From NCBI GenBank assembly GCA_018398765.1, contig JAHBMJ010001612.1, forward strand, positions 1 to 28,375: DNA of 28,375 bases, read 5' to 3'. Numbering within the stretch: position 1 is the first letter of the stretch; the number at the start of each line of letters is the position of its first letter. This document shows positions 1,466-27,374 of this stretch, one piece after another. The notes beneath the pieces were generated by a model. It was given only the letters and a program-made list of their open reading frames with translations, was not told the origin of the DNA and did no database searches. A program made the position numbers and the translations under genes. Source of the DNA: Chromera velia (taxonomy: Eukaryota; Sar; Chromeraceae).

Positions 1466-2375
1466 CTTGTTCTCCACCTTGTTCTCCAGATACTAAGTCT
1501 GTCAGTCTGAGACGGTTACCCTCTCTTGGTAAACTTGGACACTTCAACACTGTTTAAGCCTGCTTTCTGCCTTGCTCTCCAACTCACTGAGTCCACTGTC
1601 CATACTTCTGCAAGAATCCGTGTGAACAGGCGATACTGCTCAGAAGAACATCGGCGAAGAAAAGGTTGCAACATACACTTATCTAAGGTGATATATAATG
1701 ATTGAGGTTTTTGTTATGTATGCCGCGTCCCCGTGTATGAGGGGTGGATCTAGCCTAGTCTGTCAAAAGGTTCTGGTTCGTCCTGTCTATTCTGAATCTA
1801 GGAACACTGCTCATTAATCACTTTTACTGCGGCTTATTTCTCAAGTGGCAGTAGAGTAGGACTCGGAGAACAACGAAAAGAGGGGAGAGGCAGGGCAAAA
1901 ACTTTCAAAAAGTTTATTTCCTTGGCAAAGGCTACCCTTTGACGGCGGAGAACAACTTTAAAGAGACCCTCCCCATTAATTTGCCCCTTATTTTCTCAAC
2001 CTTCTTTTCTTCTTTTCCTTTCATGCGCTTGCCCCCTTTTCTTTTTTTTTTTCCTTCTTGTTTGTATACAAAGAATCAATCATAAAAGGATCGCTTACTT
2101 TACGCCTTCCGAGTTAAAAGACCCAGAGAACGCTGCGACCTCCCTACTGAGAAGGCACTCAGGCTAGAAAGGCCCTCTGGTTCCCCTCCTGTTGTGATAT
2201 ATCGGTTTCAAATTGATGCTCGCGCTACGTGATGCTAGCTAGCATGCAGGCGCTGATTTTTTTTTGTGCAGCCTGCATATACATTGTGGCGACGCTGTGT
2301 TTTACACCTTGACTGCATGCGCGTTAGGTCTGACGCGTGCGTTCATCTTCGGCGCCGCCGGCATGGCCTTTAGCC
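1466..2375. other. Intergenic DNA without recognised features
   Basis: No exon, RNA gene or long open frame can be supported. It includes a T/C-rich patch around 1985-2060. Stop codons are frequent in all frames. Confidence 0.5.
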
Positions 2376-7258: not shown

Positions 7259-7560
7259 TCAAGCTGTTCTTAATTTGTCCTTCAATGATATTTGTTCTTC
7301 TGATCTGTTTCTATCTAGCTCTTGTAGGAAGGGGCCTCTTCCTTCACCAGGACCACCTTCCTGCCTCTCCACTGGCAGCTCCTCGGTCCTCGCTGCCTTT
7401 TCTTCTGCATGTGCTCTCTGAGACTCCCTCTGCTGGACGCGTTCCAGGACCCTCTTGAGAAGAGACGAACCCGGGAGCTGCTGCACGAGCGGATGAAACC
7501 TGCAGGCCCGAGGCACCAGTCACGCGCATGTACGGGAAGACACACACACACACACACACG

Positions 7561-7603
<43 letters not shown>

Positions 7604-7627
7604 ACACAGACACACACAGACACACAG

Positions 7628-7661
<34 letters not shown>

Positions 7662-7674
7662 GGACACACAAACA

Positions 7675-7710
<36 letters not shown>

Positions 7711-7803
7711 GAGACACACACACAGACACACACACACACAGACACAGACACAGACACAGACACAGACACAGCCACAGACACACACACGCACACACACACA
7801 CAA

Positions 7804-7837
<34 letters not shown>

Positions 7838-10800
7838 ATGTACACGCCCAGAGAGAGAGAGAGAAAGAAGAGACAAGTACTGAGACAATAAGAAAGGAAG
7901 GAGGAGTGGGGTAGAGGTTGTGGCAGGCGGAGAGGTTAATGGACAGATAAGAGGGAGGGCAGGCCGAATCCCCACGTGCATTCTTTTGATTCGCCGGCAT
8001 CACTCCCTGCAGGGGGGTGCCGTTCCCCTTTGGGACGAAAAGACCCCGCACCTCCTCCGACAAACTCTCTCCGACATTCATCGCCTCTTCCAAAACACAA
8101 ATGGAAACAACAGCCGGCCTACTGACCGAAATGAGTGCCCCCCCACTCTCAAGATGTCTCCATCTGATGCCCCTGCAGCCACTAGCCCGTCGAGGCCCCC
8201 TGCAAAGGAGCGAGGGAAGGAAGGAAGGAAGGACGGGAAGACCGACAGATAGAGAGGCAGGCAGAGAGAGAAAGCAAGAGGGAAAACAAAGAGAGAGACC
8301 CATGCATCTTATCAGAATCAGAAGCAGGCCCAGAGAAGACGCCCACCATTCACTCTCAAAGGATGAATCTGACAGGGATCAAACCGCGCAGGCTGGGCAC
8401 ATTAGCGATGCGAGTTCTTCAGAGGGACACAAGGGTGACTCGGAGGTTTTCCCGCAAGCCGGAATTTGCCTACACAGTCGGGTATTTACGATCGAAAAGC
8501 CACTCCGAAGCAGGAAGGAAGGAAGGAAGGAGATGCACCAGAGACGACCAAGCGAAGCACCGGACTGTTCACGACGGAGTGTGTGAAGAGACTAAAATGA
8601 ATGTGAATGTGAATGATTGAATACATGAACAACGAGGGAATATACACACGGGCAAAACATGCAAAGAAGGGATCCAAAGATAGGCAAACAGCCCACAGGC
8701 ACCACTCTATCTCACGTGCACAACAACTGACCGAGCACCTCTAGGACCTGATAGAATCTCTCCTCGGCCTTTTCATACTGCCAGTCAGTCAAGCTGCACA
8801 TGCATGCGCACGCAAAGCAAAATCGAAATGCCACTCAACAGGAGAGCCTCGAGGAATTCTGTTTTCGCTGCAAGAACAAGGGTCCGAAAAGGCGAGAAAA
8901 AAGAAAGAGCAAGTCAAAGTGCGCAAAACAAAACCAACTTCATCTAAATACAGACCCAGCTGATCGAAGGGGACTAAAGAAATGGAGCATCCCTTCGAAA
9001 TCCCATCCACTTATTTCATTTTTTTTTTTCTGTCTTTCTTCTCTCATCCCTAACTCATCCCATGTCCCACGGAGAGGTCGGACGGACTTCGACAGAAATA
9101 ATCAGCAGCGCATCCTCGGGTCAGCAGAATGAATGTCGACCGTCCCCGGATTGCGCACAAAACGGTAAAAAAAAAGCAAAGTCCTTTCCATCGTGCAATC
9201 TCCGGCCAGACGCGGAAATACAAAGCCAGCTCAGAAGCCCAGACGAGACAGAAGGCCCAAGGGAAACACAGGAAGCAGAACGGAAGGGAAAAGAGGTAAT
9301 TGAAAGACTCACGCACTCACTCAGCTGCAAGTTCAATCTTTCGTCCCTTCAATCTCCACTCCCCTGGGCCCTCTGAGGCCACGCTGACCCTCCACTCTCT
9401 CCCCTTTTCTTTTTTTTTCTCTCTCTCCTCAGTCTTTGCAGACTCATTCTCTAAATCTATTTCTCTCTCGGCTTCCCAGCCCTCGGCCTCCAGGTCGTCT
9501 TCTTCGCCCCGACCCGCAAATCCTCCAGAATCACACGACGCAAGGAGAGTCCTGAGGGCATCACGCGCCCTTCCCCTGGGCTTCTCCCTCTGATCTCCCT
9601 CCCCGTCTTTCTCTTCCTCCCCGCTCTCTTCACTTTCCTCCCCAATGAAGAGAGACGGCCCGACCTGAAGGACGCACCATACAAAACAGACAAGGATAAC
9701 CAGGATGACAGATACAACAAAAGAAGCGGAAAAAATATGTCAAATTCTCGCGCGTGCAATCAGATCAGAGATCAGGTTTGAAGGGGAAACCTTGGAGTCC
9801 ATACTCAAAACTTGCTGCGCGAGAAAGAACCGTCAACGCCCCGCAAACCCAACCAGAACCCTAAGACTAGACAAAGGGCCCTCGGACCAACCAACCGACC
9901 AACGGACCTCTCCAACAAGACGTTCAAGTTGAAGAGCGTCTGCCATTCTGTCGTCCTCTAGGGTGTCTGTCTTGTCGAGGAGTTGCCGCAGTCGCCTCAT
10001 CAGCTCTTGGACTCCCTCTCCTGTCGCGGCAGACACGGCCAGGAGACGGCTGTGGGGAAGCACCTGGCGGATCGAAAGGGAGGGAGGGAGGGATGCGGTC
10101 GGTGCATCCATGAGAGTGTATGCAAGGAAGGAAAAAAGGTGTCGCTGAAGAGGCAGGGGAGGGGCACGGAGACTGAGACGGACACGAGAGGGGAGACGCG
10201 CATGGAAGTATGGAAGACATGCGGGTGTGAAGTAATTTCGACATCGACACGGCACGGTCGATAAAACCGAGCGCTGAGGAAGGAACTTTGCTCAGAGAAG
10301 AAAAGGAACGGGTCTTGGCATCACAGTCACAGGTACGATGCTGAAGAAAAGAAAGAAAAGAGTGATCGTGTAGTGGGATAGGAAAGGCTGATGGTCAAAT
10401 TGATCATGGATAAACAGGGAATCTTCACAAGTGACGCAGTATAAGAAGGAAGGCTTGGTCGATCAATCGCCGTCCATCAAGTCTCTTTCTTTCTTCACTC
10501 TCTCAAGATCACCACTTCTGTTCCACCCCCCTCCGTCCATTCACTCCTGCCACGCAACGCCGTGGTCTCTCTCGACTTACCCGCTTCAGTTGTTCCTCTA
10601 ATTTGCTTATTCTCTGTCTGACGAAGGGGAGGTCAACTTTGTTGATCACCACCACGTGAGGCTTCATCATCAGCGCGGGGGAGAAGAGTGCCATCTCCGA
10701 GTTGATCGCATGGAAATCCCCCACAACGTCCGGAGAGTCGCCACTGTCAGTCAAGTCACATCACACGACGAACACAGAACATTCAGACGAAAAGGGAAAG

Positions 10801-12579
10801 AAAATTCAGTAGAACATTGTCGATAGAGAGTCAACAAATTGAAAGAGCGGGGTGAAAACACGACGAAGGAGAGAGACCGCGTGTCACAAAATCAGAATAG
10901 ATTGAAAGAAAAAAATTCTTCTCGGCACAAACAACGCAGTCGAGGACAAAGACAGCCGATCCTGCGTTTTCCGATCATGTGAAGTTGACTGCTTCCTTCC
11001 CAGTCTCACTAGAGGAGCAGACAGCTCGGAACTTCTCTCATTTGTTCATTCGTTCATTCCCTGACGACCCTCTTTCCTTCTTTCATTCTTCCTTCCTTCC
11101 TCAGTGCTGGTTTTCTTTTCTCTCCTTATCTGCTCCTTGCCTGTCCTTTGTCTCCTCTCCCACCCCTCCCCCCCCAGATGTCACCACGCTTCCATTTAAT
11201 GCTTCCTCACGCGTTCGAATACGCTCAGTCTCTCCTCGCTCCATAAGGATGTCAAAACGTTGCCCGTTGTCACAAAAAACGATGGAAAACTCTTCATCGC
11301 TTGAACGTGCGCCAAAGCGCCAGCCCAATCGGTCAGTGCTGACTCACCTACCTGACGATGTGCACGATCACCCTGCACCGCTCGATATGCCTCAGAAAGG
11401 CCCGACCAAGCCCGACGCCTGAATGGGCCCCCTCCACCAAGCCCGGAATGTCCAACAGCACCAACCCCCTTCCTGCCTCCATCCCGATAGTACCGCTAGA
11501 GCTCTTCAAAGGCCCCCGACTTGCAATGCCGGGGCGCGTCCTGTGCGAGTGTGGAAACTGCAGATCCATTCACACTCATCCACCGGAGTCTTTCATACTC
11601 ATTCACTCTGAAGGACGCCCCAGGGGCGTCCGACACGACCACGATAGTCTTGCGCGCGCGCGTCTGCGTGCGTGCGTTTGCGTGGACGGAAAGAGTCGCA
11701 AGTGGAAAGGCGAGGTGCAGCGTTTCATTCGAATCCGGAATAATCATGTCAGTCAGTCAGTCAGTCAGTGAGTCAGTTAGTTAGTCAGTCCGTCATTTGC
11801 AGCAGAGAGCGAAAGCAAATTAGACAACGACTGTGAACACAGGAAGGAGAGCGATAGCAAAGCAAAGGCACGTCCACTAGACAGGACCCAACTTTGCCCT
11901 ACAAATTCCACTCTGGATTCATGCCACTATCCATCAAGGAGTTGGGGCTGAAATTAAGAAACAAACAAAGAAAGGAAAAAAGGAAGAAAGTAAAAAAAAA
12001 AAGAAGGAAAAGAAAAGCAAACAGTCGCGAGCCAAAATCTCACAGGTTGAAACTGTAGACAATTGACTTACCTGCGGAGAGAAGCTGGGGGCTCCAGAGA
12101 GTGCGGATATTTTCGAGAGACCCATTGTCTCAGCGGCCTGACTCCTCTCCACTTCTCCGGCACCCTCCTCGCTCTCATTCTCAATTGTATAGTACAGCGG
12201 AATAGGCTCACCTTCGCCTTCTCCCCCTTGCTCCCTTTGATCCTCTCCCGCGACCCCAAAGTCTTCCAAGGGAGCACCGTTTGAATCTGAGTGTGTGTTG
12301 CCGCTGACGTGGGAAGTAAAGTAGTGGGTGGGGCGAAGGTCCTTCGGTTCTGCCCTCGAGTTGATCCAGTATCCCGGGTCGCACACGCCTGCATTCACAT
12401 TCATTCATTTAATTGTGTGCAGGCAGGTAGGCGTGTTCACTTCCCGGACCGGGATGGATGCAGAAAAGAGAAGAGAAGAGACATATGGTGTAGGAAGGGG
12501 AAGATTATTCAGAGAACTCATATGGGATTCGAGAGAGAGAGGGGAAGTTACATGGGTGGGTGAACTGCCAGATAGAGGG

Positions 12580-12614
<35 letters not shown>

Positions 12615-12635
12615 TGTGTGTGTGTGTGTGCGTGC

Positions 12636-12674
<39 letters not shown>

Positions 12675-13376
12675 GAGGAAGAATCGTTTCAAACCCGCAG
12701 ATCAGACGCAGAGAGGGCCCTTCCAGTGCAATGGTTGCACTTCCGTGGATCAATTAAGAACGCAGACAGACACATCACTGAAGCAGACCTCACAAGAAAA
12801 GCAGACCAACGGAAAAAGAAGTCAGTCAGGCCCGCAACTTCCGTTTACCACCACACTAGATTGACCAACAACACCAATATTCCCTGCCAGCTTGTCTGCC
12901 TACCGATGTTGGGAATGAGTGTTGTGAAGGGATAATTCGCAATTTTTGGACGCGCGTTCGTCACCTGCAAACACGAATAGAAGGAGGGAGGTGCGGAAAG
13001 AAATAGACAGAAGGCATTTAGTGACCAGTCAGGGAAAGACAGAAAGGACGAAAAAAATCAAGAAAGGAAGACAAGACGAAACTAGAGAGACACTCAAAAG
13101 GGAAGAAATCGAAGCGGATTCCCTCACCGATACGTTTCATTCAGACAGGGAGACCTAGACGGAACACAACACGGCCAGATCCAACAAGGCAAAGGCGAAC
13201 TCCCAACAAATTATCCAGTCACCAAAAAGCCAGAGAATCGTGTTGCTGCTTCGTCTGCCTCTCTGTCCCTTGGTTAATCGGTCTGGCTTCTTGGGTCGCT
13301 CAGTGGGCTGATGTTCTCTCTGTATGCATGCCTTCCTTTCTTCTCGTCTTCCTGGCTGCCTGTTCGCTTGTCTAAC

Positions 13377-13410
<34 letters not shown>

Positions 13411-13781
13411 CTTCTTTCTGTGTTCCTCCCTGTATGTTCAATTTGTCTGGCTATATGTCTGGCTTTGCCTGTCTGGGGTTGGCGTTTGTCTTTTTTTTAC
13501 TATTATTTTTCACCACATTTCCTTCCAGCCAATCCATCATCGAGCCAACTGAACAGCAATCCAGTGACGCACGCACCAAACCAACAAAACCAACAGATAG
13601 ACAGACGGACCGACCTGGGCGAGCAACGTGGACTTCCCCGCATTGGGAATTCCGACGAGTCCGATGTCGGCACACAATCGAAGCTGCAAGACAGAAGGAA
13701 GGAAGGAAGGAAGGAAGGAAGGAAGGGAGGGAGGGAGGGAGGGAGGGAGGGAGGAAGGAAGGAAGAAAAGAGGAACGACGC

Positions 13782-13830
<49 letters not shown>

Positions 13831-15625
13831 TATATGTTTCTTCTTCTCCTGACAGCAGAACGGTCTGTGAAGGTTTCCTGACAAAGTGAAAGGACACAGC
13901 AGAAAGAAAGTTGCCAGTCGACAGGGCTTGCCTGACTGAGAAGGAAAAGAGCCCCATGAGTTCTCCCCAAAACAATTAAATGATTGGAAGGAAGGAAGTC
14001 GATCAAGAGCAGTAGACGCAGACAATAACATGAAAGTGGGTGTTGTTGTCCAGACAGCAGAAAACAGGGAAGGGTACCGTTGAGAATCCAGAAATACTAT
14101 CCCGCCTCCCGCTCAGTCTCCGTTCCCCCGCCGCAACCGGAAATCCATCCCATCATCCATCCGCAATCTATGCTGCCTCTCCTCTCCCTCCTCTCCACCT
14201 CCATGCAGTCTGTCTCCAACTCTGGCTCGGTGGACCCCAGCACCCCCCCAGCAGCTATACAGCTACTCTTCATTACAATAAAGCTCTACAAAGAGAGAGT
14301 GCGGAAGCACAAGACCAGTCACAAAACTTAAGAGACGCAGAGGAAGCCACACGAATGATCTCCTGTCTATCCTCCAAAGATATGAACGACCCAATCAGAC
14401 AAGACAAGAAAGGCAGCGCACCTCCAGTACTAAAGATCTCTTCACTCCTGCCCCAGGAGGAACGCATCGGCCACCAATGCCGCGCCCCTTCACAGAAAAC
14501 GGCTTGCCATTCCCCTGACCAGCCGCCCCTCCGCGAGCAATGACGAGTTTGTCCCCTGGATGCCTCAGACAACCTGCATGTCAGAATTCATCAAGAGATT
14601 CAAACTCCGCACATACATACAGATCGACAGTCCGGAAAGGCAAAGAAGCAGACTCAAAAGCTTGCACACCGAGGCTTAACGAGTGTGCAGGCGGCCATCG
14701 AGAAAAAACAAAAGGGTGGTCTCTTGTGTCCCCTGGAGAAACAAAAAGAAATTCTCTTGTATCTACAGTGTCTCAGACGCCCTCCTACTGTGTCCACAAT
14801 TCAATATGCACAAGCCTGTCTCTATGCGAGGAAAAGCATGCGACCATGCATGTCCTTCCGTATGATCGACCGAGTCCGTTCTACCAAACCACCCACAGAC
14901 CGACCAAGCGGCTCTCCTGTTTCCGCGCTCCGCACCGTTGTTCCTACAGGAATTCTCACGACCGTGTGCGCACCGTTTCTTCCGTTTCGATACTTTGCAC
15001 ACCCAGCTTCTCCGTTCTCTGCCACGAAGGAGGATCTGCCCCTGAAGGCCTCCAGAGTCGATGCGCTCCGGTCACAAACGAAAATCACGTCCCCGCCCCT
15101 TCCGCCATTCCCGCCGTTCCCGGGGCCTTGAGAAGTTGCAAAAGTCTTCCTTCCCTTGCGCTCCAGAAGCTTGAACGTCTTTGCACCCTCACCCCCCGTT
15201 CCGGCCTTGACAAAGACCTGCATGCAACGATGGGCATGGTGCGTGCAACCTTAGCGTAAACGTTCGAGTCTCCAAACGAGACGGCTGTCTCGCACACGTC
15301 TCCAAGGGGATCCAACGGGGTCCGGGACCGTGGACTAGACAATCTACCTAGCATTATCACAAACGCCGACCCGTGCTTCGTCGTAAAATTCGACGTCTCG
15401 AGCACTCTCTGGACGGACGGAGCCACTCGTCTCCAGGTTCAACCTCAAAGCCGTAGCGCCGTCTCCTTTGCGTTCACGCATTGTCTGAATGACACAACTT
15501 TGCCTAGGACGAAAATGGAGGCCTTCAATCCATCTACTTGCAAGGAAAGCAGCACTCTGTTGAAAGCCTTCCGCCTCCTTCCACGTGGTGAGTAAAAGAA
15601 ACACAGAGAGCACACCAAGGAACAT
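7259..15625 (-). CDS. Obg/CgtA-family GTPase, probably plastid-targeted (13 exons, 803 aa)
   Basis: Obg proteins are GTPases that help assemble the large ribosomal subunit; ObgC is the plastid form. Exons, 5' to 3' on the minus strand: 15625-15371, 15217-14905, 14573-14422, 13683-13615, 12964-12904, 12388-12072, 11557-11352, 10743-10581, 10063-9908, 9664-9321, 8793-8732, 8199-8127, 7499-7259. All junctions are GT-AG, all phases join, and the total is 2,412 nt. Residues 1-20 look like a signal peptide ([20 protein letters not shown]) followed by FQQSAAF, the bipartite plastid-leader pattern. The Obg fold runs from FYDEAR (about 80) through [14 protein letters not shown] to the GGAAGQGN motif. 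G1 is GIPNAGKST (251-259), G2 YPFTTL (274-279), G3 DIPG (425-428), G4 NKVD (492-495) and G5 SAAT (523-526). After the GTPase domain come a charged linker (565-660), an OCT domain (about 663-727, ending [16 protein letters not shown]) and a charged tail of about 75 residues. The exon 6 region is an insertion. Exons 1-9 are the surest. Exons 10-13 rest on the OCT match and phase. Confidence 0.88.
7541..7835. repeat. (CA)n microsatellite in the last Obg intron
   Basis: About 295 bp of CA repeat with CAGA and GAGA interruptions, inside the 8126-7500 intron, which joins the OCT core to the C-terminal tail. Long open frames of Thr-His or Val-Cys repeats cross it on both strands and are artefacts. 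Confidence 0.9.
11746..11795. repeat. (GTCA)n repeat in Obg intron 6
   Basis: A short GTCA/GTTA/GTGA repeat on the plus strand, antisense within the 12071-11558 intron. It has the same sequence family as the donor-adjacent repeats and the 20.7-kb satellite, but in the opposite sense to Obg transcription. Confidence 0.75.
12579..12670. repeat. (GT)n microsatellite in Obg intron 5
   Basis: About 90 bp of GT repeat with a few A and C interruptions, between the exon carrying the G2 loop and the exon carrying the insertion. Confidence 0.9.
13379..13412. repeat. (TGTC)n microsatellite in Obg intron 4
   Basis: Eight near-perfect TGTC units inside the 13614-12965 intron. The same intron opens, on the minus strand, with GTCGGTCCGTCTGTC. 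Confidence 0.8.
13690..13832. repeat. Compound purine repeat forming the pyrimidine tract of Obg intron 3
   Basis: On the plus strand: (GGAA)n, (GGAG)n, (GA)n and then (ACAG)n. On the coding (minus) strand this is about 140 nt of CTGT, CT, CTCC and CTTC repeats ending in TCTTGCAG at the acceptor of exon 4, so the microsatellite serves as the polypyrimidine tract. Confidence 0.85.
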
Positions 15626-16689
15626 TTTTTTTAAGCAACGCTTCCTGTCGGGAGACGCTTTCCCTCAATGGTGGATGGTGGGCACGCCTTGCATCTTTCT
15701 CCATCCATCCAAGCTAAGAAAGGAAGCTGTTCAACATCGCTTAACACACACTGACACTCCGACGCATATATTGAATGCAGCCTGAAGGCGAGTCAATTTA
15801 ATGTGACACTGACAGTTGATCGATCTTGTATTATTCTTGAGTTAAACCCAAGAAAAATGCAAGCAACAGTGAGTGCATGTACATAGCAGCGCAAATGCGG
15901 CGGCGCGCGTGCATGCATGGTCAAATATACGTACGCGGTATATACACGCGTACGCGCGCCGCCGCTCACCGCAGCCATCGCGCTGATTCGCACTGAGCCT
16001 TTCTAATTCTTGTGCCTTTAATTCAGGCTATATTTCAGGCTCCAATACCATCCAATACCTTCCGATCCTTTCTCTTCTCCGTGAAGTTCTCCCTAGTCTT
16101 CTCCACCTTGATCGTACCTTTCCATTACTCGAAGTTTCATAGAGGTACATTTCATGAATCAGAGAGAGGTCGTATATATACACTGCTGCGTGCCCTGCGG
16201 AGGATTGCACGAGCTTTTCATGAATTTCGTGTCAGGGCCTGAGAGTTCGTTGACAAGGAAGCTCGGAGTTGGTCAAGATTTCTCCAGCTTTCTTTACTCA
16301 CTCAAGTGCGCTGGGGCCATCCGGTAAAAACCCCGTTTGAGATCCCAGCAACGCCACGGGCACCACCTTGTGTCTCTCGCTGCCGATTTTGTGAACACCC
16401 GTGGAGGCCGGTCGTGGCAGACGGCTTGTGCCAGCCGCCGCGCATATGTTCCCGTTATGCAGTCGTACAATACTGTGGAGTACCAACGCATGTGAGTCTA
16501 CGCTGTGTTTATCACCCACGACTGTTTGCTTGCTCGCTTTGGACGTGGGTGGCTGGTTGGAAGAAGAACAGGAAGGTCTCCAAGCCGGATTTGCATAATG
16601 TTTCTGTCTGATCGAACCACGGTATGGATCGCTGAACGAATGAATGGATCGACGGGTCGACCATATTGAATGGCTGCAGGTACTCGGCC
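15626..16689. promoter_or_regulatory. Divergent intergenic region between Obg and SIZ genes
   Basis: About 1.06 kb separates the two start codons, so both promoters and 5' UTRs, and possibly an upstream SIZ exon, must lie here. It has a TATATATA word at 16172-16179, TTCATGAA palindromes near 16151 and 16217, and the inverted repeat listed separately. An open frame at 16306-16611 (plus) has no recognisable features, and I do not call it. Confidence 0.6.
15897..15965. promoter_or_regulatory. Inverted repeat with TGCATGCA in the divergent promoter
   Basis: Perfect 14-bp arms, GCGGCGGCGCGCGT (15897-15910) and its reverse complement (15952-15965), enclose 41 bp. That loop begins within the palindrome TGCATGCA (15910-15917) and has further small palindromes (TACGTA, GTATATAC). 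TGCATGCA is a known target word of some ApiAP2 factors in apicomplexans. Whether it works that way here is inference. Confidence 0.6.
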
Positions 16690-17776
16690 ATGCGGGTGGA
16701 CGATCTGAAGAACGAGTGCCGGAGAAGAAGTCGGTCAGAAGCAATGCATTTGGAAGGCGCAGAGCCGCCAGAGAGCCAGAAAGGCAGAGAGAGGGTTAGA
16801 AAGACTTCTAGAGGCAGCAGCCGCAAACAAGAGCGCGTGGAGGCGGACGCGACACGCTGGCCGAGAGCCCTTGATTCTCTTTTTACCCCGCCTCACCCCT
16901 CCATTGTTTGTCTTCGTTTGCGAAGCGCTCAACTTGCTTGTTGGCATTTGTCTCGCTCTCTCCTCTCGGTCGTCTCTCTCTCGTGCAGACAGCTGCTTTT
17001 CTTTTCGCACCAAAACTTTCCCTTTTACGGGTCTGATGAAAGGTAAGGTTGTACTGTGTTCCTCTTGTGCGTGCACATGCAGATTTGAGAGTTTCAGGCA
17101 GCAAGTCCGAGCTGGTCTCTCGTCTGATGTCCAGCCACTCGCAGCAGATCGCTACATCCGCTGTCGTTCAGCAACAGCAACAGAGGGCAGCGCAAACCGC
17201 ACACTCGCTGCAGCAACCGCATCAATCGCTCCTTGCTCAGCAGCCGTATCAAATGCAGTACTATGGGGGGGCGCCGGGCGGGGGTCTTTTGAACCAAGGT
17301 ATTCCGATGGGTGCGATGGGGGGGTACAATTACGCACAGCCTGTGCAGCTGACGATGTTGCATATGCATGGGGGAGCTAACCCAACTATGTCACCCCAAC
17401 GCCAGCCGCAGCAGCAGAGCCAACAGACTCAGCATCAGCAGCAGGTCCAGCCTCTGCCTTCCAATATTGCCACCCAGCGTTTACCCATGCAGCAGCAGGT
17501 GCAGGTCCAACACCAGCAACCCCGTCAGCTTCAGCCCCAGCCACCACCACCTGCACAGCGACAGGGTGCCCAACAACAGCAGCGTGGTCAGGTGCAGCCA
17601 CCGCAACAACGGGCATCCCACACCGCAGCCGCCGCAGGCAGTGGAGGAGGAGGGGGGGCGATAGGTCCCTCCCGGATCGGGAGCTGCATCTGCAAAGACC
17701 CTTCGCGGTCGGATTGGCTCGTCCAGTGCACAGAGTGCAACAAGAAAATGGTCAGTTTCGTGCGTGAGTGAGTGAA

Positions 17777-17850
<74 letters not shown>

Positions 17851-19931
17851 CAAATCGGACGAAAGAGATGCGGTGGTGTGGGCAGGCTTTTTTGGCGTGA
17901 GGCGAGCAGAAATCGAAAATGTTCCCCCCTAACTTTTGCGCTTTTCCCAGCCTGGCGGACAAAATTCAATGAACAGCCGATTGATTGACGTTTGCGAAGG
18001 ATCGCGCTCTCTCTTGATGCTTGGATATTTTATCTTTTTTTATTTTTCTGTCGGAGGGTTCTCTCGTTGCGTCTCTGTTCCTTTTTACGTTTGTGTGGTG
18101 ACGCCTCGGGCGACGAGTTTTGATCGGTCGAGAGACTCCATTCTCTCTCTGTCGGAGATTCATTGACATCACACGCACACAACTGCTCGATCCCTGTCGC
18201 TGCTCCCGTCAGCGTCGATGGATGGATGGATGGATGGATGAATCTTCGAAGCCTGGTTGTCCTGTCCTGCTGTGTTCTGCCTGCAGCACTTTACCTGCGT
18301 GGGATTCCCCCCTCCACGGTTCAGACAGCCGGAGGTTCCTTCTGGGTTTGTGTGCCCCCTCTGCAAGCTGAAGGACTTGGATCCGTTTATGAAGATGGTC
18401 GGTCGGTCGGTCGGTCAGAATGACAAACAAATACTCGTCTGTACATTCATCGCATAGGCATTGCCGTTTCTATCTTTTCTTCTTTTCTCCGCACGAACTC
18501 TTTCTCCTGAGCATGATTGTCAAAGGGTTTTCTACCAGGAATGCTCTTTGCCTCACTCACTCACTCCCTCCCTGCCTCCCTGCAGGTCTCCATCGGGATG
18601 GCGAAACTCGTGGAGCCGCGAGCGAGGCATCACGTAATGAGTGCCGCGTTCACACCAGTGAAATACAGCGAGAACATCAGGCTGAACGATTGGGCAGAAT
18701 TCAGAAAGTCAGTCAGCACAGTGGGGTGGGTGGAATGGCTAATGGACGGGGAGGTCAGGCGAGGAGTCTCATCATTCTTTTATTTATTTAAGGTCTAGCT
18801 TGAGAAAGCAATTCGACAGAAAGCAGGGGGGAAAGCTTCGGGAAATGCCGAAAAATCTTCTGCCGTGGCCCTCCTCTCTCTGTCTCCGTTTTGACAGTCA
18901 CATCAATGACTAGCACATGAAAGATGTTCTCATTACCTGAGCTTTGAAGGAAGGACAGGGGGAGCAACAGAGGCCCCCCCAAGCTTATCGTTGTATTCAA
19001 GTCTGCGTCGCCATCCTTCTCGCTCACTCTCTCTTCCCTCGGATTGGTCTTGGTGTGCTTTTATTTCTCTTCTCAGTCTCTTCTGCATTCTGCATTCTCG
19101 CTTTCTTCGATCGATTCAAGAGTGTTCGAAGGGATGCTCAAAGAAAGCTGCAAGCTCCTTCTGCATTCGTTTCTCTCCCCCACCCGTAGCGTGTCTGCCT
19201 TGACCCGCGTGCACGTCTGACTGCGCTTCTGTTTTGCTCCATGCATAATCTCTCTCTCACTGTTGGATGATGCGCAGCTCTGGGGGCGAGATGATGCTGT
19301 ACTGCATCAAAATGTCCACTGACAAATCCGACGCCTACAAGTGTTCCTACCCGCGTACCCTGTACGTGAGGGTGAACGACAGATCTGCTCTGGAGGTGAA
19401 GGAGCCGGTGCCGGAACGAAAGAGGAAAGACGAACCACAGTCGGTGGGTTCGTTTCGCGCCTGTCGTTTTTGCTTTTTTTGTTCGTCTTGTGCTGGTTTT
19501 ATTTCCGAACTGAAAAAAGGGAGAGGAAGAATAGCAGCGAATACAGAAAACACCAAAGCTTCATAGCACTGACGTACGGTCTCTGTAAATTCCCCTGCAT
19601 AAATAAATGAGTCAACTTTCAGACGTCGACGAGATGAACGCGGGAAAATCGCTGTTAAAAATCACTGAATGCGGGAAAGTTGTAGAACTCCTGACAGAGG
19701 AAAAAAGGAGATCGCATCAAACAAGCAAAGGAGGGCTTCATCTCACAGCCGTTTTCCACCCGTGTGCTCAAATTTAAAGCTCTTTCTTTTCTAACCTCTT
19801 TCCTGTCTGACTTCCTCCTCGCAGGTCTCTCCCTACCTGAAGGCTTCCTCTGGCAATTCGTTCCACTTTGAGTGGACGTGTGAACCGAACGTGGTCAGTC
19901 AGTCCGTCAGTCCGCACTTTCACTCACTTTC

Positions 19932-19965
<34 letters not shown>

Positions 19966-20563
19966 AGGACAGGAGGGGGGGGGGCAATAGGGGGTCAGTT
20001 AGGCAGCTAGGGACGAATCGTTCGTTCTTTCTGTTCATCTTTTTTCCTTCCGTGCTTCATCTGGAAAGCAGGCAGGGGGGCAGACAAAGAGAAGCAGCAG
20101 CGGTCTGAGGCAGCTTCACTTAGTCTCCTGTCGGGAGCGTGGCTGCAGACAGGGAGGGAGGGAGGGAGAAACTCACCCGCAAACAAAAAAAGTGGATCTT
20201 GTGTAGACAGACAGATAGTCCCCAACCGCCAGTATGCACTGCTCTCGGCCGTTTGTCCTTTGCGAATGGAAAAAGGGAAGAAAAGAAAGAAAGAAGGCAC
20301 ATGGTCTTCCCGTACGTTTCTCTCTCTGCGCCGTCTGTCCTTCGTCCATTCATCCATGGACCCTTTCATCAACCCAATCCCATCCAATTCGATACCATCG
20401 ATCCCCTTCCCTCCCTCCGGTTTTCCCTCTGCATGTTTGGTTTGTACATTCATCCATGCAGAAACACCTGCTCGTTCTCCTTGACTGCCGTCGCGAAACT
20501 GCAAGTAGCCTCGAGGTCAGTCGGTGCAGTCGCTGCAGATCCACACACACGAACGCGCGCGCA

Positions 20564-20596
<33 letters not shown>

Positions 20597-22532
20597 TAGA
20601 GAGAGAGATAGGCGGTCCCTTCCATGCCTCCAGCAGAGAACCCCCAAAAGCGTGCGACTGACTGACTGACTGAAACACTGACTGACTGACTGTGACTGAC
20701 TGACTGACTGACTGACTGACTCTGACTGACTGACTGACTCTGACTGACTCTGACTGACTCTGACTGACTCTGACTGACTGACTCTGACTGACTCTGACTG
20801 ACTCTGACTGACTCTGACTGACTCTGACTGACTCTGACTGACTCTGACTGACTCTGACTGACTGACTGACTGACTCTGACTGACTGTGACTGACTGACTC
20901 TGACTGACTGTGACTGACTGACTCTGACTGACTCTGACTGACTCTGACTGACCGACTGACTGACTGACTGACTGACTCTGACTGACTGACTGACTCTGAC
21001 TGACTGACTGACTCTGACTGACTCTGACTGACTCTGACTGACTCTGACTGACTGACTGACTGACTGACTCTGACTGACTCTGACTGACTCTGACTGACTG
21101 ACTGACTCTGACTGACTCTGACTGACTCTGACTGACTCTGACTGACTCTGACTGACTCTGACTGACTCTGACTGACTCTGACTGACTGACTGACTGACTG
21201 ACTCTGACTGACTCTGACTGACTCTGACTGACTCTGACTGACTCTGACTGACTCTGACTGACTGTGACTGACTGACTCTGACTGACTGTGACTGACTGAC
21301 TCTGACTGACTGTGACTGACTGACTCTGACTGACTGACTGACTCTGACTGACTGACTGACTGTGACTGACTCTGACTGTGACTGACTGACTGTGACTGAC
21401 TGACTCACTGACTGACTCACTGACTGACTCTGACTGACTCTGACTGACTCTGACTGACTCTGACTGACTCTGACTGACTCTGACTGACTCTGACTGACTC
21501 TGACTGACTGACTCTGACTGACTCTGACTGACTGACTCTGACTGACTCTGACTGACTCTGACTGACTCTGACTGACTCTGACTGACCGACTGACTGACTG
21601 ACTGACTGACTCTGACTGACTCTGACTGACCGACTGACTGACTGACTGACTGACTCTGACTGACTCTGACTGACCGACTGACTGACTGACTGACTGACTC
21701 TGACTGACTCTGACTGACCGACTGACTGACTGACTGACTGACTCTGACTGACTCTGACTGACCGACTGACTGACTGACTGACTGACTCTGACTGACTCTG
21801 ACTGACTGACTGACTGACTGACTGACTGACTCTGACTGACTCTGACTGACTCTGACTGACTCTGACTGACTGACTCTGACTGACTCTGACTGACTCACTG
21901 ACTACAGTTCTAGTTCTTCATTTTCGACCCGACCCGGAAGCCCTCTTTGTGGTGCGGTCCGTGTCTAGCCGTTCGTTCGCGTTGAAAGAAAAAAATTAGG
22001 CGTTGTTGTACACCCACACCTTCCAGTCTCATTGAAGTGCGTCCCTCCATTCAGAAAGAATACGAAAGCAGGGAAAATGTACTCTCATACAAACCCAGCT
22101 GATCAATATCCGACTGAGGGAAGTGAAATGATGGGCAGAACGATTCTCTTTACCCTTTGCCCGTCTCTTGTGCAGCAACACATTCGAAACCGACTTCAGC
22201 ACCCGTCGCTTGAGCAGGCACAGGACAGAGGTGGGCAAAGGGTGCAGGGAGAGCTGTTTGTCAATGTGCAGGCTCCTTTTTTTGTATGCCCTGGGCTTTG
22301 CGGGCGTGCTGACCGCATTGATTGTGATTGCGCATGTTGCCTGACGAGTTGTTTTCTCTCTCTTCCGCTTCTTATGTTCTTGCTTGCTGCTTGAGATGCG
22401 TGGCTGCGATTCTTCTTTGTGTCTGCGCTGTTTGTTTTTTCCTTTCCTCTATGCACATGCAGGATGGGGTGAGGGGAATTCTTTTTCGTGTCAAGCATTG
22501 CTCTGTCTCCCTCTCTCCCTCTCCCCCCCTCG

Positions 22533-22580
<48 letters not shown>

Positions 22581-24490
22581 GCAGTTCGGCAACTTTTGAC
22601 TCAAAAGGGCGACGATGAGGTCAGTCAGCGTTCTCTCGTCCATCCATCTCAAAGAATGGCGAACCCGTGCGTTAGAGGAACACCGCTTGGTTTTGGTTGT
22701 GACGGTGAATCGACATTTGTCCTGTCTAGCCTGTTCAGCTGAGCTCAGCTCCATATGAACGGTCCAACTTTCAATCACCTAGCTCCATCGGGTTGGCATG
22801 GCCTGGCTGGCTTCGGCGACGAGCACTCCAATCATCCTTTCTTGATTCTCTCGCTCTTGCTCGCTCTCTCTCTCTCTCTCTCTCTCTCGTTAGGAAGGAA
22901 CCTCTTGGATGAACTTAGGGGGGCTGGAGGAGCTCTCCTATCAATGTCAATAAATTGAATGATGGATGGGCGGATGCATCCATATGATCATCTTTCCTTG
23001 TTCAGATTTGGGCTTTTGATTTTCTTTTAAGTGGATTTCCTTTCATTCACTCACTTTGGTTTCTTTCGATCTTCCTTCCTTCTCTTTTCAGTGGATTTCC
23101 TTTCATTCACTCACTTTGGTTTCTTTCGATCTTCCTTCCTTCCTTCCTTCCTTCCTTCCAGGTAGAGCTTCTTGACAGGGACCTCTCTGTCAAAGTCCTC
23201 TGCCCGTACACCTGCGTCAGGTCCGTTCGTACGTACGTCTCTTTGTCCTGTCTCACCTTGCTTTGCCCTGTCTTGTCGGTCTCGAGAAGCCATCGCCTTG
23301 TCATTCGGGGAATATCTCTTCGCTTGCTCACTCCTGTTTCTAGCAGGTGGTCGAGCTGCGCACTCACTTTCCATCTTTTGGTTTGGTCTGGCACCCATCT
23401 TTTGTCTTCGTGACTTTCCCCAATATTGTGGTTTTCTTTCGTCCTTCCTTTTCCTTCCTCTTCCCTGTCTTGATCGAAACTTTCTTCCTTGGAGCGATTG
23501 GCTCGGCTCGGCTGGGCACTCTTTCTTCTCTTGGTCCTCTCTGCATGAATACGTTCGTTTTCCTGCATATCCACAGTCGGCAGTTGCAATGCGTCCCGAA
23601 GGCACATTGCGTGTGGATTTTTCTTGATAGATTTCATTGATTCATGTGCGTTTGGCACGGCAAGCTTGGTGCAGAATCAACGTCCCTGCTCGGGGCAAAG
23701 ATTGTGAACACCTCCAATGCTTCGACCTTCATGGCTTTCTGGACGTCACTTCGCGCACTTTTTTTAACAAAAGGTGGCAGTGCCCCTCGTGTCACCACCG
23801 CCTCTTCTTGAAGACAATTGTTGTCGATCCCCTCTTTCAGCGAATGCTCAAGGTCAGCCTGTTATTGGATCGAAACATTTTGGCAGTCGGATCCTTTCGC
23901 TTGTCTTCTCTCCTCGCAGTCATGCTTCCTTCCCAGCTAAGCTAGCACCTTCCTTCGTCGGGAACCGTCTCGTTCTCTCCTCCCGAGAAAGACGTCTTTC
24001 TCGTTCACTGTATCGATCAGTCAGTCATGGTCCCGCTGAGCTTCACTGGATGATGGATGGAGGTGTGGCAAGAAGTGTTTGCACTGGCTGGCTGCATGCA
24101 TGCATGCAGGACAATGAGACTCAAGATGCTGCCTTGGTAGAATTTCAGCAGGTGAGTGAGCATGGGAGGGAGGGACGCAGAGACAGACAGACAGACACAG
24201 TCAAATCTGCAGGAAGGATTTATTCTTTTCGTCCGAACCTTCATTTCTTCTAATGTTTATTATCATTCATTCCGATTGTTGCATGGCCTTTTCGGGGATT
24301 GATGGAAGGGGGCGAAATGAAAAGAAAAATCAGGAACTGAAGGGGGAGTGAGAGCACGAAAAATACTGAAGGGGGACTTATTCTCTTTGCCTTATGCTTC
24401 TTTTCACTCTCCCCTCTCGTTCCGAATGGCGCGGAAATTTTTTTCCCCTTTCTCCATTCTTTTTTTTGAGTGGCTGGCCAACCGACTTCT

Positions 24491-24532
<42 letters not shown>

Positions 24533-27374
24533 TCAGGATGGCAGTTGGAAAATCTCCCGGGGGGACGAGGGGGGGCAGTCGAGTGATGAAGAGAGCAGAG
24601 GAGTTGGGGCAGCACCCAGAGTAAAAACTGAAGAGGGCTCAGCAGCCGGGGGGCATGAGGACCCGAGGAAATTGGCTGCGTTTCAGAAGCACAATCCGAC
24701 AGTCATCGACCTCGACTCGGACGATGAGGAGGAAGAGGGGGGAGGAAAGGAAAAAGAAGCAGAGAGAGGGCCTGCTAGCAGCTCTTCTTCTTCCTCCTCA
24801 GCTTCCTCTTCGTCCGCAACTGCCGCCCTTGCATCCGCCCCTCATCGCTCCGACTTTCGTCCTGCTGCGGTGGCGCCCTCGTCCTCTGCCTCTGCAAATT
24901 GTGCAGCGCCAGCAGCATCCAGTGTCGTCCTTGTGCGGGCAGCCCCACGACGGCCCGCAGCAGACGACGACGAAGAGCCAGAACCACCTCCCGCCCCCGC
25001 GGGCTCAGGAGGTCCTCCTTCTGGCCAGCAGCAAAGCGGACAGCAGACTGAAATTCTTCATCGACAGGGAGTGGGGCGACAAGAGGAAGGCACCCTACAG
25101 CAGCGGCAGAGAGAGGGAGAAAGAGTCAACGGGGGCTGGACAGAGAAGGAGAGGGCGGCCCTTCCCGCCAACTCACTTCTTTCCTCTCATGCTTCCCGTG
25201 CGGAGGGGGAAAGAATACCGCACGGGGATGACCCTTCTTCTTCGTCTTGTCCCTCTGCTGTTCAGGCTGCCACCAGACCTCCAAATCCCAACTCAGCCGT
25301 TGGCTCACCCCCTCTACTTCCCCACCCGAACAGAGGGGCGCGCCTTGTTTTCAATCCTTCAACTGCCGAGAGATTCAGAGCGCAAATCCAACACCAGAAC
25401 CCGAACAGACACCCAGAGAACCCTATGCACGACCCCGCGACTGCCGCTGATGCACTGCCCCCGCATCTTCAGAACGGAACGAACTCCAGCAGTCCCCTTC
25501 CCCTTCACCTTTCCCCCGCGTCAGATGCAGAGAGAAAAAGAGAGAGGGGGGGGGATTCTCGTTCTCCCCTCGCATCCACACCCTCTCAGCGTTCCCCCTC
25601 CCACCAATACAGAGATGCCGACTCCATGCCCAGATCTCCCCAACCACCCCTGCTCATGCAGGAGAGACACAGGGAAGAAAACGGGAGCACCGAGAGAGAC
25701 AGAGATAAAGAAAGAGAGAGGCCACCCTGGCGAATGCGCAATCAGGGAGACCAGCCAATTCCCCAACCGTCCGCTGTTGTCACACTTTCTGTTCATCGGG
25801 GACCTCCCATTCCATTGCCCCCCTCTCAACAACAGGGGACCGGCAGCAAGAGGGCTCTGGAGAGCAGCAACAGCAACCCATCTCAGTATCCTCAGAGGTT
25901 TCACTCAAAGGGTAGTCATCCTCTTTCGCTTGTCCCCAGAGGGGCAGAGGGAGACGGGGGGAGAGGTGTTCAGGATTTTGTGTCTGGGCTCAATGGCCAC
26001 AGGCAGCAGCAGGAAGATGATAATGATGATTATGGAGATGGCGGCATCGGGGCCGAGCGTCACCCGAAGAGACATGCAGGCCCGGATTCCATTGCAGCAG
26101 AAAGACGTGCCGCCATGACAGATGGGAACCTCAGCCCGAATCCTCAACCGGGCAACGGGAGATATGGATACGGATACGGCGCCTGCCCTCCCCACAGAGA
26201 AGGAGAAGGGGACTCCTCATACTCGGGATCATCTCACATTCACCCTCGGGGGGACGGGCAGAACGCCCATCCGCCTGCTGGAGGTCATGCGACAGGTAGA
26301 GGAGGCCCCCCCGGGGGTCACTTCTACCCTCCACAGCCGCAGACGCAGACGCAGTATCAACAGCAATCCTCCATGCAAATCCATGGAGGGCGTCATGCTG
26401 GTGAGTCGGTCGGGCAATGTGCAGAAAGGAAAAAGCTTCACAAAAATATTCTTTCTTGAGGAACAAAAGAAGAGAACAGGAAAGAGACAAAGAAAGGAAC
26501 AGACGAGTCAACGAAAGAAAGTCTTCCGCACAAAATTCCAATGGAAGGAAGGACCACTTCGATCGAAGTACTCGCGGTCTTTTTTGGTTTGCTGCAACCT
26601 TTAGTGGGTCTCCAAGCATTTCAGCAAAGATATTACATTCCTTTTCCAAAATTGATCCCCCCGATTGTGCGCCTTACGGCCGCCCTGCTCTCCATGCTTG
26701 ACTGAATTTGAGCTACCTACCTTCTGAAAGTCCACTGTGGCATCGGTGAGGCTGATGAAGGAAGTGCACGATCATGAAACAAGCGCACTTATCTGTTCGT
26801 TACCGATGCAGGCGGGGCTCCTGATACTTCAGAAGATGTGGAAATGACCGGGCAGAGGCAGAGAGGGTGGGTCAGTGACCCGAAGGGGGCGGAAGGGAAG
26901 GGAAGCCTTCATTTGAGCAGGCACACGTTCGTATCCCCCTGAGCATTTTCATTTCCTTTTTTGTCACAATGCTCAGAGTTCCTGTCACTTTTTTTTTTTT
27001 TCTTGCCTTCTCTCTTTCTTTGCAATATCCAGTCTTTCATCTTTCGTCGAAAAAAACGAATGGAAAGCTGTGCAGACATTTCAAGAGAGCAGGGAGAGGA
27101 AAAAGGGCACAATGCAAAACAGGCGACGGCTCAAAACAAATTCACTGGACGAGAGGGACCCGAGTTGTAAAGAATTAAAGTGACGACGAAAGGGAACCGA
27201 ATTCATTCTGTCTTCTGCTTTCTGTCCCTCCCTCGGTCGGTCTGTTTTTGTAGTCCTCCCTTAGCCATCCATACATGTTCTCATTTCTGTGTTGGCGTCC
27301 GTGTTCACATGCGCCCCTTTTCTTTTTTTGCTGAGTGCAGATCTTCCGAGGATCCAATTTGTATCGACGACTAA
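16690..27374 (+). CDS. SIZ/PIAS-type SUMO E3 ligase, SAP-PHD-PINIT-SP-RING (15 exons, 1,183 aa)
   Basis: SIZ/PIAS ligases bring SUMO-charged Ubc9 to nuclear substrates. Exons: 16690-16729, 17083-17750, 18287-18397, 18586-18707, 19278-19443, 19825-19893, 20462-20515, 22176-22230, 22585-22619, 23162-23220, 23675-23852, 24110-24151, 24537-26400, 26812-26866, 27341-27374. All phases join (3,552 nt). The SAP domain is residues 1-30, split by intron 1. A Gln/Pro-rich stretch follows. The PHD finger has C215, C217, C229, C232, H237, C240, C259 and C262 and ends LKDLDPF as in plant SIZ1. PINIT spans about 280-410 and a helical linker follows. The SP-RING (454-500) has CPYTC, CEHLQCFD and WQCPSC, with C470, H472, C496 and C499 as zinc-site residues. 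A SUMO-interacting motif, VIDLDSDDEEEE (589-600), and a sumoylation-type site, VKTE (562-565), follow. The rest, about 570 residues, looks disordered, rich in Ser, Pro, Gln, Asn and Arg. The model ends in DPICIDD, a possible second SIM. The ATG at 16690 is the only in-frame start after the stop at 16633, but a TGCAG acceptor at 16675-16679 allows an upstream exon. Exons 14-15 are less sure. Confidence 0.87.
17778..17845. repeat. (TG)n(AG)n microsatellite in SIZ intron 2
   Basis: About 36 bp of TG repeat run directly into about 32 bp of AG repeat, some 30 bp after the GTCAGT donor of exon 2. Confidence 0.9.
18398..18417 (+). repeat. (GTCG)n repeat forming the SIZ exon 3 donor
   Basis: Exon 3 ends ATGAAGATG and the intron starts GTCGGTCGGTCGGTCGGTCA. 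Four consecutive copies of a GTCGGT donor word follow one another, so the exact splice point is repeated every 4 nt. Phase and the PHD-to-PINIT join fit the first copy. Confidence 0.8.
20656..21904 (+). repeat. 1.25-kb (GACT)-family satellite in SIZ intron 7
   Basis: The array is built from GACT and TCTGACT units, mostly arranged as CTGACTGACT. It occupies three quarters of the 1,660-nt intron 20516-22175. Variant words mark higher-order periods: GACCGAC at 21584, 21628, 21672, 21716 and 21760 (44 bp each), and GTG variants at 21264, 21288 and 21312 (24 bp each). The minus strand reads open for up to 482 codons as Ser-Gln/Ser-Val repeats only because the unit has no stops in those frames. Confidence 0.95.
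22538..22582 (+). repeat. (GT)n tract abutting the SIZ exon 9 acceptor
   Basis: A GT repeat runs into GCGTGTGCAG, the acceptor for the 35-nt exon 9. It takes the place of an ordinary pyrimidine tract, although a C/T-rich stretch lies just upstream (22498-22537). Confidence 0.85.
23031..23140 (+). repeat. 60-bp tandem duplication at the SIZ intron 9 3' end
   Basis: The unit starting GTGGATTTCCTTTCATTC occurs at 23031 and again at 23091, with about 50 bp identical in line. The first copy ends TTCTCTTTTCAG, a decoy acceptor. The second runs into (CTTC)n and the used acceptor TTCCAG before exon 10. Confidence 0.9.
24491..24532 (+). repeat. (CTGC)n tract as pyrimidine tract before SIZ exon 13
   Basis: About ten CTGC units end in CTTCAG at 24531-24536, the acceptor for the large exon 13. 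The repeat is itself the pyrimidine-rich acceptor region. Confidence 0.9.

Follow-up and report, generated by a model that had tools for sequence, protein, structure and literature searches.

Prevalence of C at position +3 of predicted splice donors in conserved Chromera velia genes, with unchanged U1 and U6 pairing letters

A purine at position +3 of the 5' splice site (the donor) is usual, although not strictly defining, for U2-type introns. In the stretch considered here, 28,375 nucleotides of Chromera velia (contig JAHBMJ010001612.1 of assembly GCA_018398765.1, positions 1 to 28,375, our contig C1610; hereafter the window, meaning the whole of this stretch), most introns predicted in an Obg GTPase gene and a PIAS/Siz SUMO ligase gene carry C at this position. 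The partners of +3 have been described: in U1, the pseudouridine psi6 is the partner of +3 and psi5 that of +4 (Kondo 2015, in the portion available), and after the hand-over G44 in the ACAGA box of U6 lies opposite +3, an interaction that the accessible part of PMC11732430 presents as weak, with A or G as the usual base. The same portion of that paper treats it as debated whether U1 selects the 5' splice site or the selection falls at the hand-over to U6, and SNRNP27 and METTL16 are linked to +4A in the accessible part of PMC10581693.

In the conserved genes tested, the predicted donor consensus is an exonic G followed by GTC(A/G)GT on U2-type GT-AG introns, about two thirds of which have C at +3, and the U1 and U6 copies that were found are unchanged at the pairing positions. 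The assembly comprises 177.8 Mb in 4040 contigs, about 0.3 Mb of which were retrieved for the analysis of introns.

Donor letters in the window and in six further genes

The Obg gene occupies 15625-7259 on the minus strand, with 13 exons and 12 introns placed by reading phase and homology; its model reads through in one frame to the stop at 7259, which is counted among its 804 codons. The PIAS/Siz gene lies on the plus strand; its model starts with the SAP exon at 16680 and extends to about 27374, with 13 introns and a frame without stop over 1185 codons across 13 junctions. The introns, with donor, acceptor and basis, are the following.

Obg intron 1, 15218..15370, minus: GTCGGC, TGCAG; reading phase and match to bacterial Obg
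Obg intron 2, 14574..14904, minus: GTCGGT, TGCAG; gene model and aligner
Obg intron 3, 13684..14421, minus: GTGCGC, TGCAG; gene model and aligner
Obg intron 4, 12965..13614, minus: GTCGGT, TGCAG; gene model and aligner
Obg intron 5, 12389..12903, minus: GTAGGC, TGCAG; gene model, the aligner giving the same donor and a different acceptor
Obg intron 6, 11558..12071, minus: GTAAGT, TGCAG; open frame across an insertion without homology
Obg intron 7, 10744..11351, minus: GTAGGT, GACAG; gene model and aligner
Obg intron 8, 10064..10580, minus: GTAAGT, GCCAG; B. subtilis Obg alignment agrees, E. coli Obg alignment gives another donor at low margin
Obg intron 9, 9665..9907, minus: GTCCGT, TTCAG; open frame
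Obg intron 10, 8794..9320, minus: GTGAGT, TGCAG; frame open into the DUF1967 match
Obg intron 11, 8200..8731, minus: GTCAGT, TGCAG; inside the DUF1967 match
Obg intron 12, 7500..8126, minus: GTCAGT, TGCAG; frame open to the stop at 7259
PIAS intron 1, 16730..17082, plus: GTCGGT, TGCAG; interrupts the SAP match
PIAS intron 2, 17751..18286, plus: GTCAGT, TGCAG; interrupts the PHD match
PIAS intron 3, 18398..18585, plus: GTCGGT within a GTCG run, TGCAG; open frame
PIAS intron 4, 18708..19277, plus: GTCAGT, CGCAG; frame open into the PINIT-like region
PIAS intron 5, 19444..19824, plus: GTGGGT, CGCAG; PIAS2 alignment
PIAS intron 6, 19902..22138, plus: GTCCGT within a GTCA/GTCC run, GGCAG; spanned, weakly, by the PIAS2/PIAS3 alignment
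PIAS intron 7, 22231..22584, plus: GTGGGC, TGCAG; PIAS2 alignment and frame
PIAS intron 8, 22620..23161, plus: GTCAGT, TCCAG; PIAS2 alignment and frame
PIAS intron 9, 23221..23674, plus: GTCCGT, TGCAG; PIAS2 alignment free of gaps here
PIAS intron 10, 23853..24109, plus: GTCAGC, TGCAG; PIAS2 alignment and frame
PIAS intron 11, 24152..24536, plus: GTGAGT, TTCAG; the join FQQ-DGSW matches PIAS2 FQEDGSW
PIAS intron 12, 26401..26811, plus: GTGAGT, TGCAG; open frame only, no homology
PIAS intron 13, 26867..27340, plus: GTGGGT at 26867 or GTCAGT at 26871, TGCAG; open frame only

Taking GTCAGT for PIAS intron 13, these 25 introns have C 15, G 6 and A 4 at +3, G at +5 in 25/25, T 20 and C 5 at +6, and TGCAG at 17 of 25 acceptors. 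The initial annotation had listed 26 introns with very similar figures (+3 C 15, G 7, A 4; +5 G in all; +6 T 21, C 5; TGCAG in 19/26), which our re-derivation bears out; the one-intron difference is probably an extra exon near 21914-21956 splitting PIAS intron 6, of which the PIAS2 alignment has no need. The ambiguity of PIAS intron 13, whose GTGGGT donor at 26867 gives a frame ending at 27374 when read by eye, puts the window total at 14-15 for C and 6-7 for G. Against a background of 29.8% C, p is 0.0017 for 15/25, and would be 0.016 for 13/25.

Beyond these models, introns were placed with a protein-to-DNA aligner that is neutral to splice signals, its score taking in protein similarity, GT and AG and nothing else; chains from the PDB served as references. 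Seven genes on seven contigs, including the window Obg, yielded 71 introns, for each of which the margin is the score lead over the best model lacking that donor; 63 keep a margin of at least 3, and the 8 dropped below it have C 3, G 4 and T 1 at +3. Among the 63, +3 is C in 43, G in 12, T in 4 and A in 4, a purine being in the minority, and +4 is A in 36. None of +5 G (61), +6 T (47) and -1 G (50) was scored as a splice signal, and the unscored +5 G and TGCAG (39/63) imply that most aligned junctions are real. The concern raised with the initial annotation, that its pattern had been favoured where two GT sites were possible, is thereby answered.

Outside the window, the 56 introns of six conserved genes on six contigs have C 39, G 11, T 4 and A 2 at +3 (p = 9e-10 against 29.8%, p = 7e-8 against GTNNGT sites, which are 34.2% C), and the 45 with a margin of at least 10 have C 30, G 9, T 4 and A 2 (p = 4e-7 and 9e-6, respectively). 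Contig by contig, C is found in 4/9, 7/10, 6/9, 7/8, 8/11 and 7/9. When the first choice was forbidden, the runner-up donors had C in 29/71 and +5 G in 27/71, the slight elevation of C over background probably arising because many of them lie in the same GTCN run. The excess of C at +3, as judged from these alignments, is real and wider than the window in the genes tested. A wider logo with the usual purine at +3, which would have contradicted the initial annotation, was not what the sample reached, less than the whole genome, gave.

Several exclusions define these counts. The B. subtilis Obg alignment (6 introns) is a second reading of the same gene and was left out. The E. coli Obg alignment is poor over the long insertion. 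Among the 7 introns kept from it, the one with GTCAGG/GGAAG is absent from the gene model and the one with GTAGGC has a different acceptor; neither enters the outside-window set. One cct3 intron (GTTGAC/GAGAG), beside an X run in the reference, is probably spurious. Five of the seven CCT loci were aligned, leaving out CCT5, a fragment located at the end of its contig, and CCT7, for which 3 exons were predicted. All 25 window introns and all aligned introns are GT-AG, the only class that the aligner and the hidden Markov model (HMM) described below permitted. No GTATCC donor occurs among the 63 aligned or 25 window introns; AT donors were disallowed by the method, and U11/U12 were not searched.

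The HMM was self-trained on 226 kb, namely the window and contig C1105 (5970 N), chosen as the longest among the contigs known. When the whole donor was left flat, it gave 120 introns (+3 C 35%, G 34%, T 18%, A 13%) with G at +5 in only 50%, which shows that many HMM junctions are wrong. With +3 flat, and +5/+6 and the acceptor learned, it gave 181, and the 114 of these with +5 G and +6 T have C 53, G 36, A 13 and T 12; with all positions learned, which is not neutral, 192 introns have C 91, G 63, A 26 and T 12. GTCAGT is the commonest donor both here (32/181) and in the aligned set (21/63). The HMM agrees with the aligner in direction, but is weaker evidence and gives lower C.

Base composition was rejected as the cause. 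After unmasked GT the next base is C in 29.8%, G in 28.7%, T in 26.1% and A in 15.4% (C 34.2% where NGT follows), and GTxNGT sites in intron interiors are 27.5% C in homology introns and 21.5% in HMM introns, compared with 68-70% C at the donors of the homology introns. Since the genome has little GTA, composition explains part of the A shortage at +3, but not the C excess. Avoidance of stops in retained introns (GTAA and GTGA hold TAA and TGA) was also considered and set aside, as no clear phase effect is seen (C in 22/31 phase 0, 14/20 phase 1 and 7/12 phase 2 introns).

As to the window genes themselves, the Obg protein matches the Pfam families GTP1_OBG, MMR_HSR1 and DUF1967, its closest solved relatives being bacterial and mitochondrial Obg proteins. 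It has an insertion of about 120 residues ahead of the DIPG (G3) motif, a long acidic stretch ahead of the C-terminal domain, and an N-terminal signal-like leader containing AEGFQ, a type of leader that complex-plastid proteins have. This leader, the load of low-complexity sequence and the long introns are in keeping with Chromera velia; the assembly gave no match to the psbA family, in which a plastid code with UGA=Trp would have been read. In a 386-residue part of the PIAS/Siz protein compared with Pfam, SAP, PHD and zf-MIZ score above cut-off and a PINIT-like region below it.

Splicing RNAs and proteins of the genome

The full-length U1 gene (Rfam 79.3 bits, above cut-off) carries AAACUUACCUGG, and the 5' end ACUUACCUG is present in it and in two further copies. 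A DNA search with this gene returned five U1-like copies: ACUUACC is kept in L002, L003 and L048, UACCUGG in the degenerate L049, and L004 lacks the 5' end; position 6 is U in all four where it is readable. L049 is a U1 fragment of 63 bases that matches the full-length gene at 100% identity and has an AT-rich repeat in front, apparently a truncated copy. All seven U6 copies above cut-off hold ACAGAG (six ACAGAGA, one, L010, ACAGAGT); an eighth match, L012, is weak, below cut-off and was not read, and the U6 alignment holds one copy in opposite orientation. Two U5 copies carry the canonical loop CGCCUUUUACU, and the evidence on small nuclear RNAs covers U1, U5 and U6.

The initial annotation had proposed that U1 or U6 pairing is altered and that their letters might compensate. 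No compensating base was found at U1 position 6 in four copies or in the U6 ACAGA box in seven: U1 ACUUACC and U6 ACAGAG are unchanged. The part of the proposal that stands is that C at +3 conflicts with ordinary U1 pairing; what remains of it is a changed balance between U1 and U6, in which C would oppose U1 psi6 and go with G44 of U6, or else some modification invisible in sequence. A divergent U1 with G opposite +3, absent from the assembly or overlooked, is in our view quite improbable: the U1 and U6 searches score the best candidates only (41 of 2442 for U1), so copies may be missed, and the assembly is possibly incomplete, but the DNA search gave five copies, with U at position 6 in the four readable ones.

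Three zf-U1 matches lie above cut-off, the third (L044) weak; L042 and L043 were read. The genome thus encodes at least two predicted zf-U1 (U1-C type) proteins, L042 (about 1501-1611, minus strand) and L043, which may be a U1-C paralogue. L042 differs at residue 11 (I for T) and at SVRK (GGRR) from human U1-C. There is one LUC7 locus; SNRNP27 is represented by one locus above cut-off, and a METTL16-type domain occurs on a single contig. All are exon-level matches and hence lower bounds. The zf-U1 matches and the LUC7 locus, and the divergence of L042, would suit an explanation at the level of U1, in which a changed U1-C or LUC7 protein, or a U1 modification, permits or prefers C at +3 with no special part for U6. 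We consider this unlikely. In the portion of the published work available, U1-C makes no base-specific contact, and single alanine changes at its contact residues have no effect on yeast growth; moreover, tolerance accounts for the lost purine preference, not for C rising above the GT background.

Pairing at +3 and the period-4 runs

On the reading that we prefer, U1 would bind through -1G, +1G, +2U, +5G and +6U, the mismatch at +3 being tolerated, and C at +3 could form a Watson-Crick pair with U6 G44, which A or G cannot; it would be the U6 step, and not U1, to which donors in this lineage are adapted. For unmodified RNA, the computed U1 duplex amounts to -9.5 kcal/mol with +3C, -13.7 with +3G and -13.6 with +3A, so that C costs about 4 kcal/mol. 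Were C only tolerated, C donors might be expected to have stronger letters elsewhere, and they do not (U1-matching positions besides +3 average 5.7 with C at +3 and 5.6 with G; -1G in 34/43 C donors and 16/20 others). C thus shows no sign of being a weak base, which fits a gain at U6.

The introns are also strongly periodic. From the donor, homology introns read GTCA GTC(A/T) GTC. GTC. GT.., with C at +3, +7, +11 and +15 in 68, 54, 46 and 38% and G at +5, +9, +13, +17 and +21 in 97, 60, 57, 46 and 46%; counted back from the acceptor, T is the repeated letter at -5, -9, -13, -17, -21, -25 and -29. Lag-4 identity is 0.478 over the first 40 nucleotides of the intron, 0.380 in its middle part and 0.421 over its last 60 nucleotides; exons have 0.248. 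Position +7 copies +3 (C to C in 30/43 and G to G in 5/12 homology introns; 47/77 and 22/52 in the HMM set), and +8 copies +4 (T to T in 6/6, A to A in 18/36). GTNN runs of at least 3 units are commoner at homology donors (21/47) than in the interior (29/120), but not at HMM donors (35/130 versus 163/488 interior GTNNGT sites, which are largely GTGT), so that period 4 is partly a property of the whole intron. Two further observations concern these repeats. The acceptors of the 63 aligned introns have TGCAG in 39/63; position -8 is G in 48% of them, and T appears at intervals of four bases as far upstream as about -29. PIAS intron 6 holds a 1.4 kb tetranucleotide-type array (window 20450-21910), GTCA-like on the minus strand and with open frames reading SQSVSQSE, about 550 bases downstream of the GTCAGTCAGTCCGTCAGTCC donor run.

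With +5/+6 again GT, the donor would be a two-unit GTNN tandem able to slip, giving a period-4 run downstream. The order that we favour is that C is preferred at the donor, GTNNGT slips and the run follows, the run being a copy of the donor and not the source of its C. The reverse, a mutational origin in which donors are the starts of microsatellites and biased GTNNGT slippage fixes C at +3 without spliceosomal selection, draws on the same strong period, on the copying of +3 by +7 and of +4 by +8, and on the HMM runs being no commoner at donors than in the interior. It appears improbable to us, since homology-set runs are commoner at donors, C peaks at the donor and declines inward, the GTCA class is rare elsewhere (3/130 perfect tetranucleotide repeats of at least 14 bases on C1105), intron interiors are not C-rich after GT, and homology donors lacking a downstream copy still have C in 11/20. 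Inheritance of C from one founder element spread as introns scarcely deserves credence. Odd splice signals have been described for introners of the dinoflagellate Amoebophrya (PMC7789003, in its accessible part), but the comparison of 219 repeat-masked introns (BipA counted twice) gave 18 matches with E below 1e-5, and the 12 examined were 11 BipA self-matches and one 34-base match, with no intron family among them.

That the donor is tuned to the U6 step, with the U1 mismatch tolerated and the run copied from the donor, is to our mind an evenly balanced proposition. A broader version, put forward only tentatively, would have a lineage-wide switch from a U1-optimal to a U6-optimal letter at +3, with the choice made mainly at the U6 hand-over and GTNN runs regenerating spare donors every four bases.

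A number of points weigh against the tuning to U6 and its generality. Nearest-neighbour pairing with U6 gives -0.1 kcal/mol for +3C, the same as for G, A and U, the isolated C:G44 pair being uncredited because +4 A stands opposite A43. Only GTCTGT gains with U6 (-4.6 kcal/mol), and this fully complementary donor makes up only 4/63, GTCT repeats (ACAG class) being common anyway (21/130 on C1105). No seesaw between exon and intron is seen in the aligned set (-2A in 23/43 C donors versus 15/20 others, p = 0.17), and pairing of +3 with U6 is here drawn from published geometry. The excess is also uneven: cct6 has C in 4/9 introns; the flat-donor HMM, given +5G, shows a weaker one (59 introns, C 24, G 19, A 8, T 8); its 181 introns with +3 flat have C 38%, G 30%, A 17% and T 15%; and HMM donors without a downstream copy have C in 26/66. 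Finally, the junctions are those predicted from DNA and protein alignment, the sample of genes is one of conserved genes, and contig C1105 was taken for its length and not at random.

Comparison with known systems

At +3, U1 psi6 favours a purine and U6 G44 would favour C, so that the two RNAs ask for different letters; a genome with prevailing C and both RNAs unchanged would be a ready-made natural experiment on the choice between U1 and U6. In practical terms, a gene finder that has learned GTRAGT would overlook genuine donors in this genome. A literature search returned no account of C at +3 in this lineage, most subscription journals lying outside its coverage.

Two described systems come close. 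As in the two 5' splice site classes, preferring the U5 loop or the U6 ACAGA box, of PMC11732430 (accessible part), donors here could be set at the U6 hand-over, where +3 faces G44; in contrast to the U6 class GURAG as given there, +3 is C and the 63 introns show no exon-intron seesaw. The switch from +4A to +4U in Saccharomycotina (PMC10581693, in the portion available) likewise changed one donor position lineage-wide with the U6 ACAGA box unchanged, but it concerns +4 and not +3, and SNRNP27 and METTL16-type domains are present here. With canonical U2-type GT-AG introns, the predicted introns share +5 G, +6 T, -1 G, the +4 A preference and a pyrimidine-rich 3' end with CAG, as well as canonical U1, U5 and U6 genes, GT...AG being the only ends that the methods admitted; they differ in having C at +3 in about two thirds, with A or G in the minority, the TGCAG acceptor and the period of four. 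With a deviating consensus and unchanged U1 and U6 letters, the predicted donor in the genes tested is a variant of the U2-type donor.

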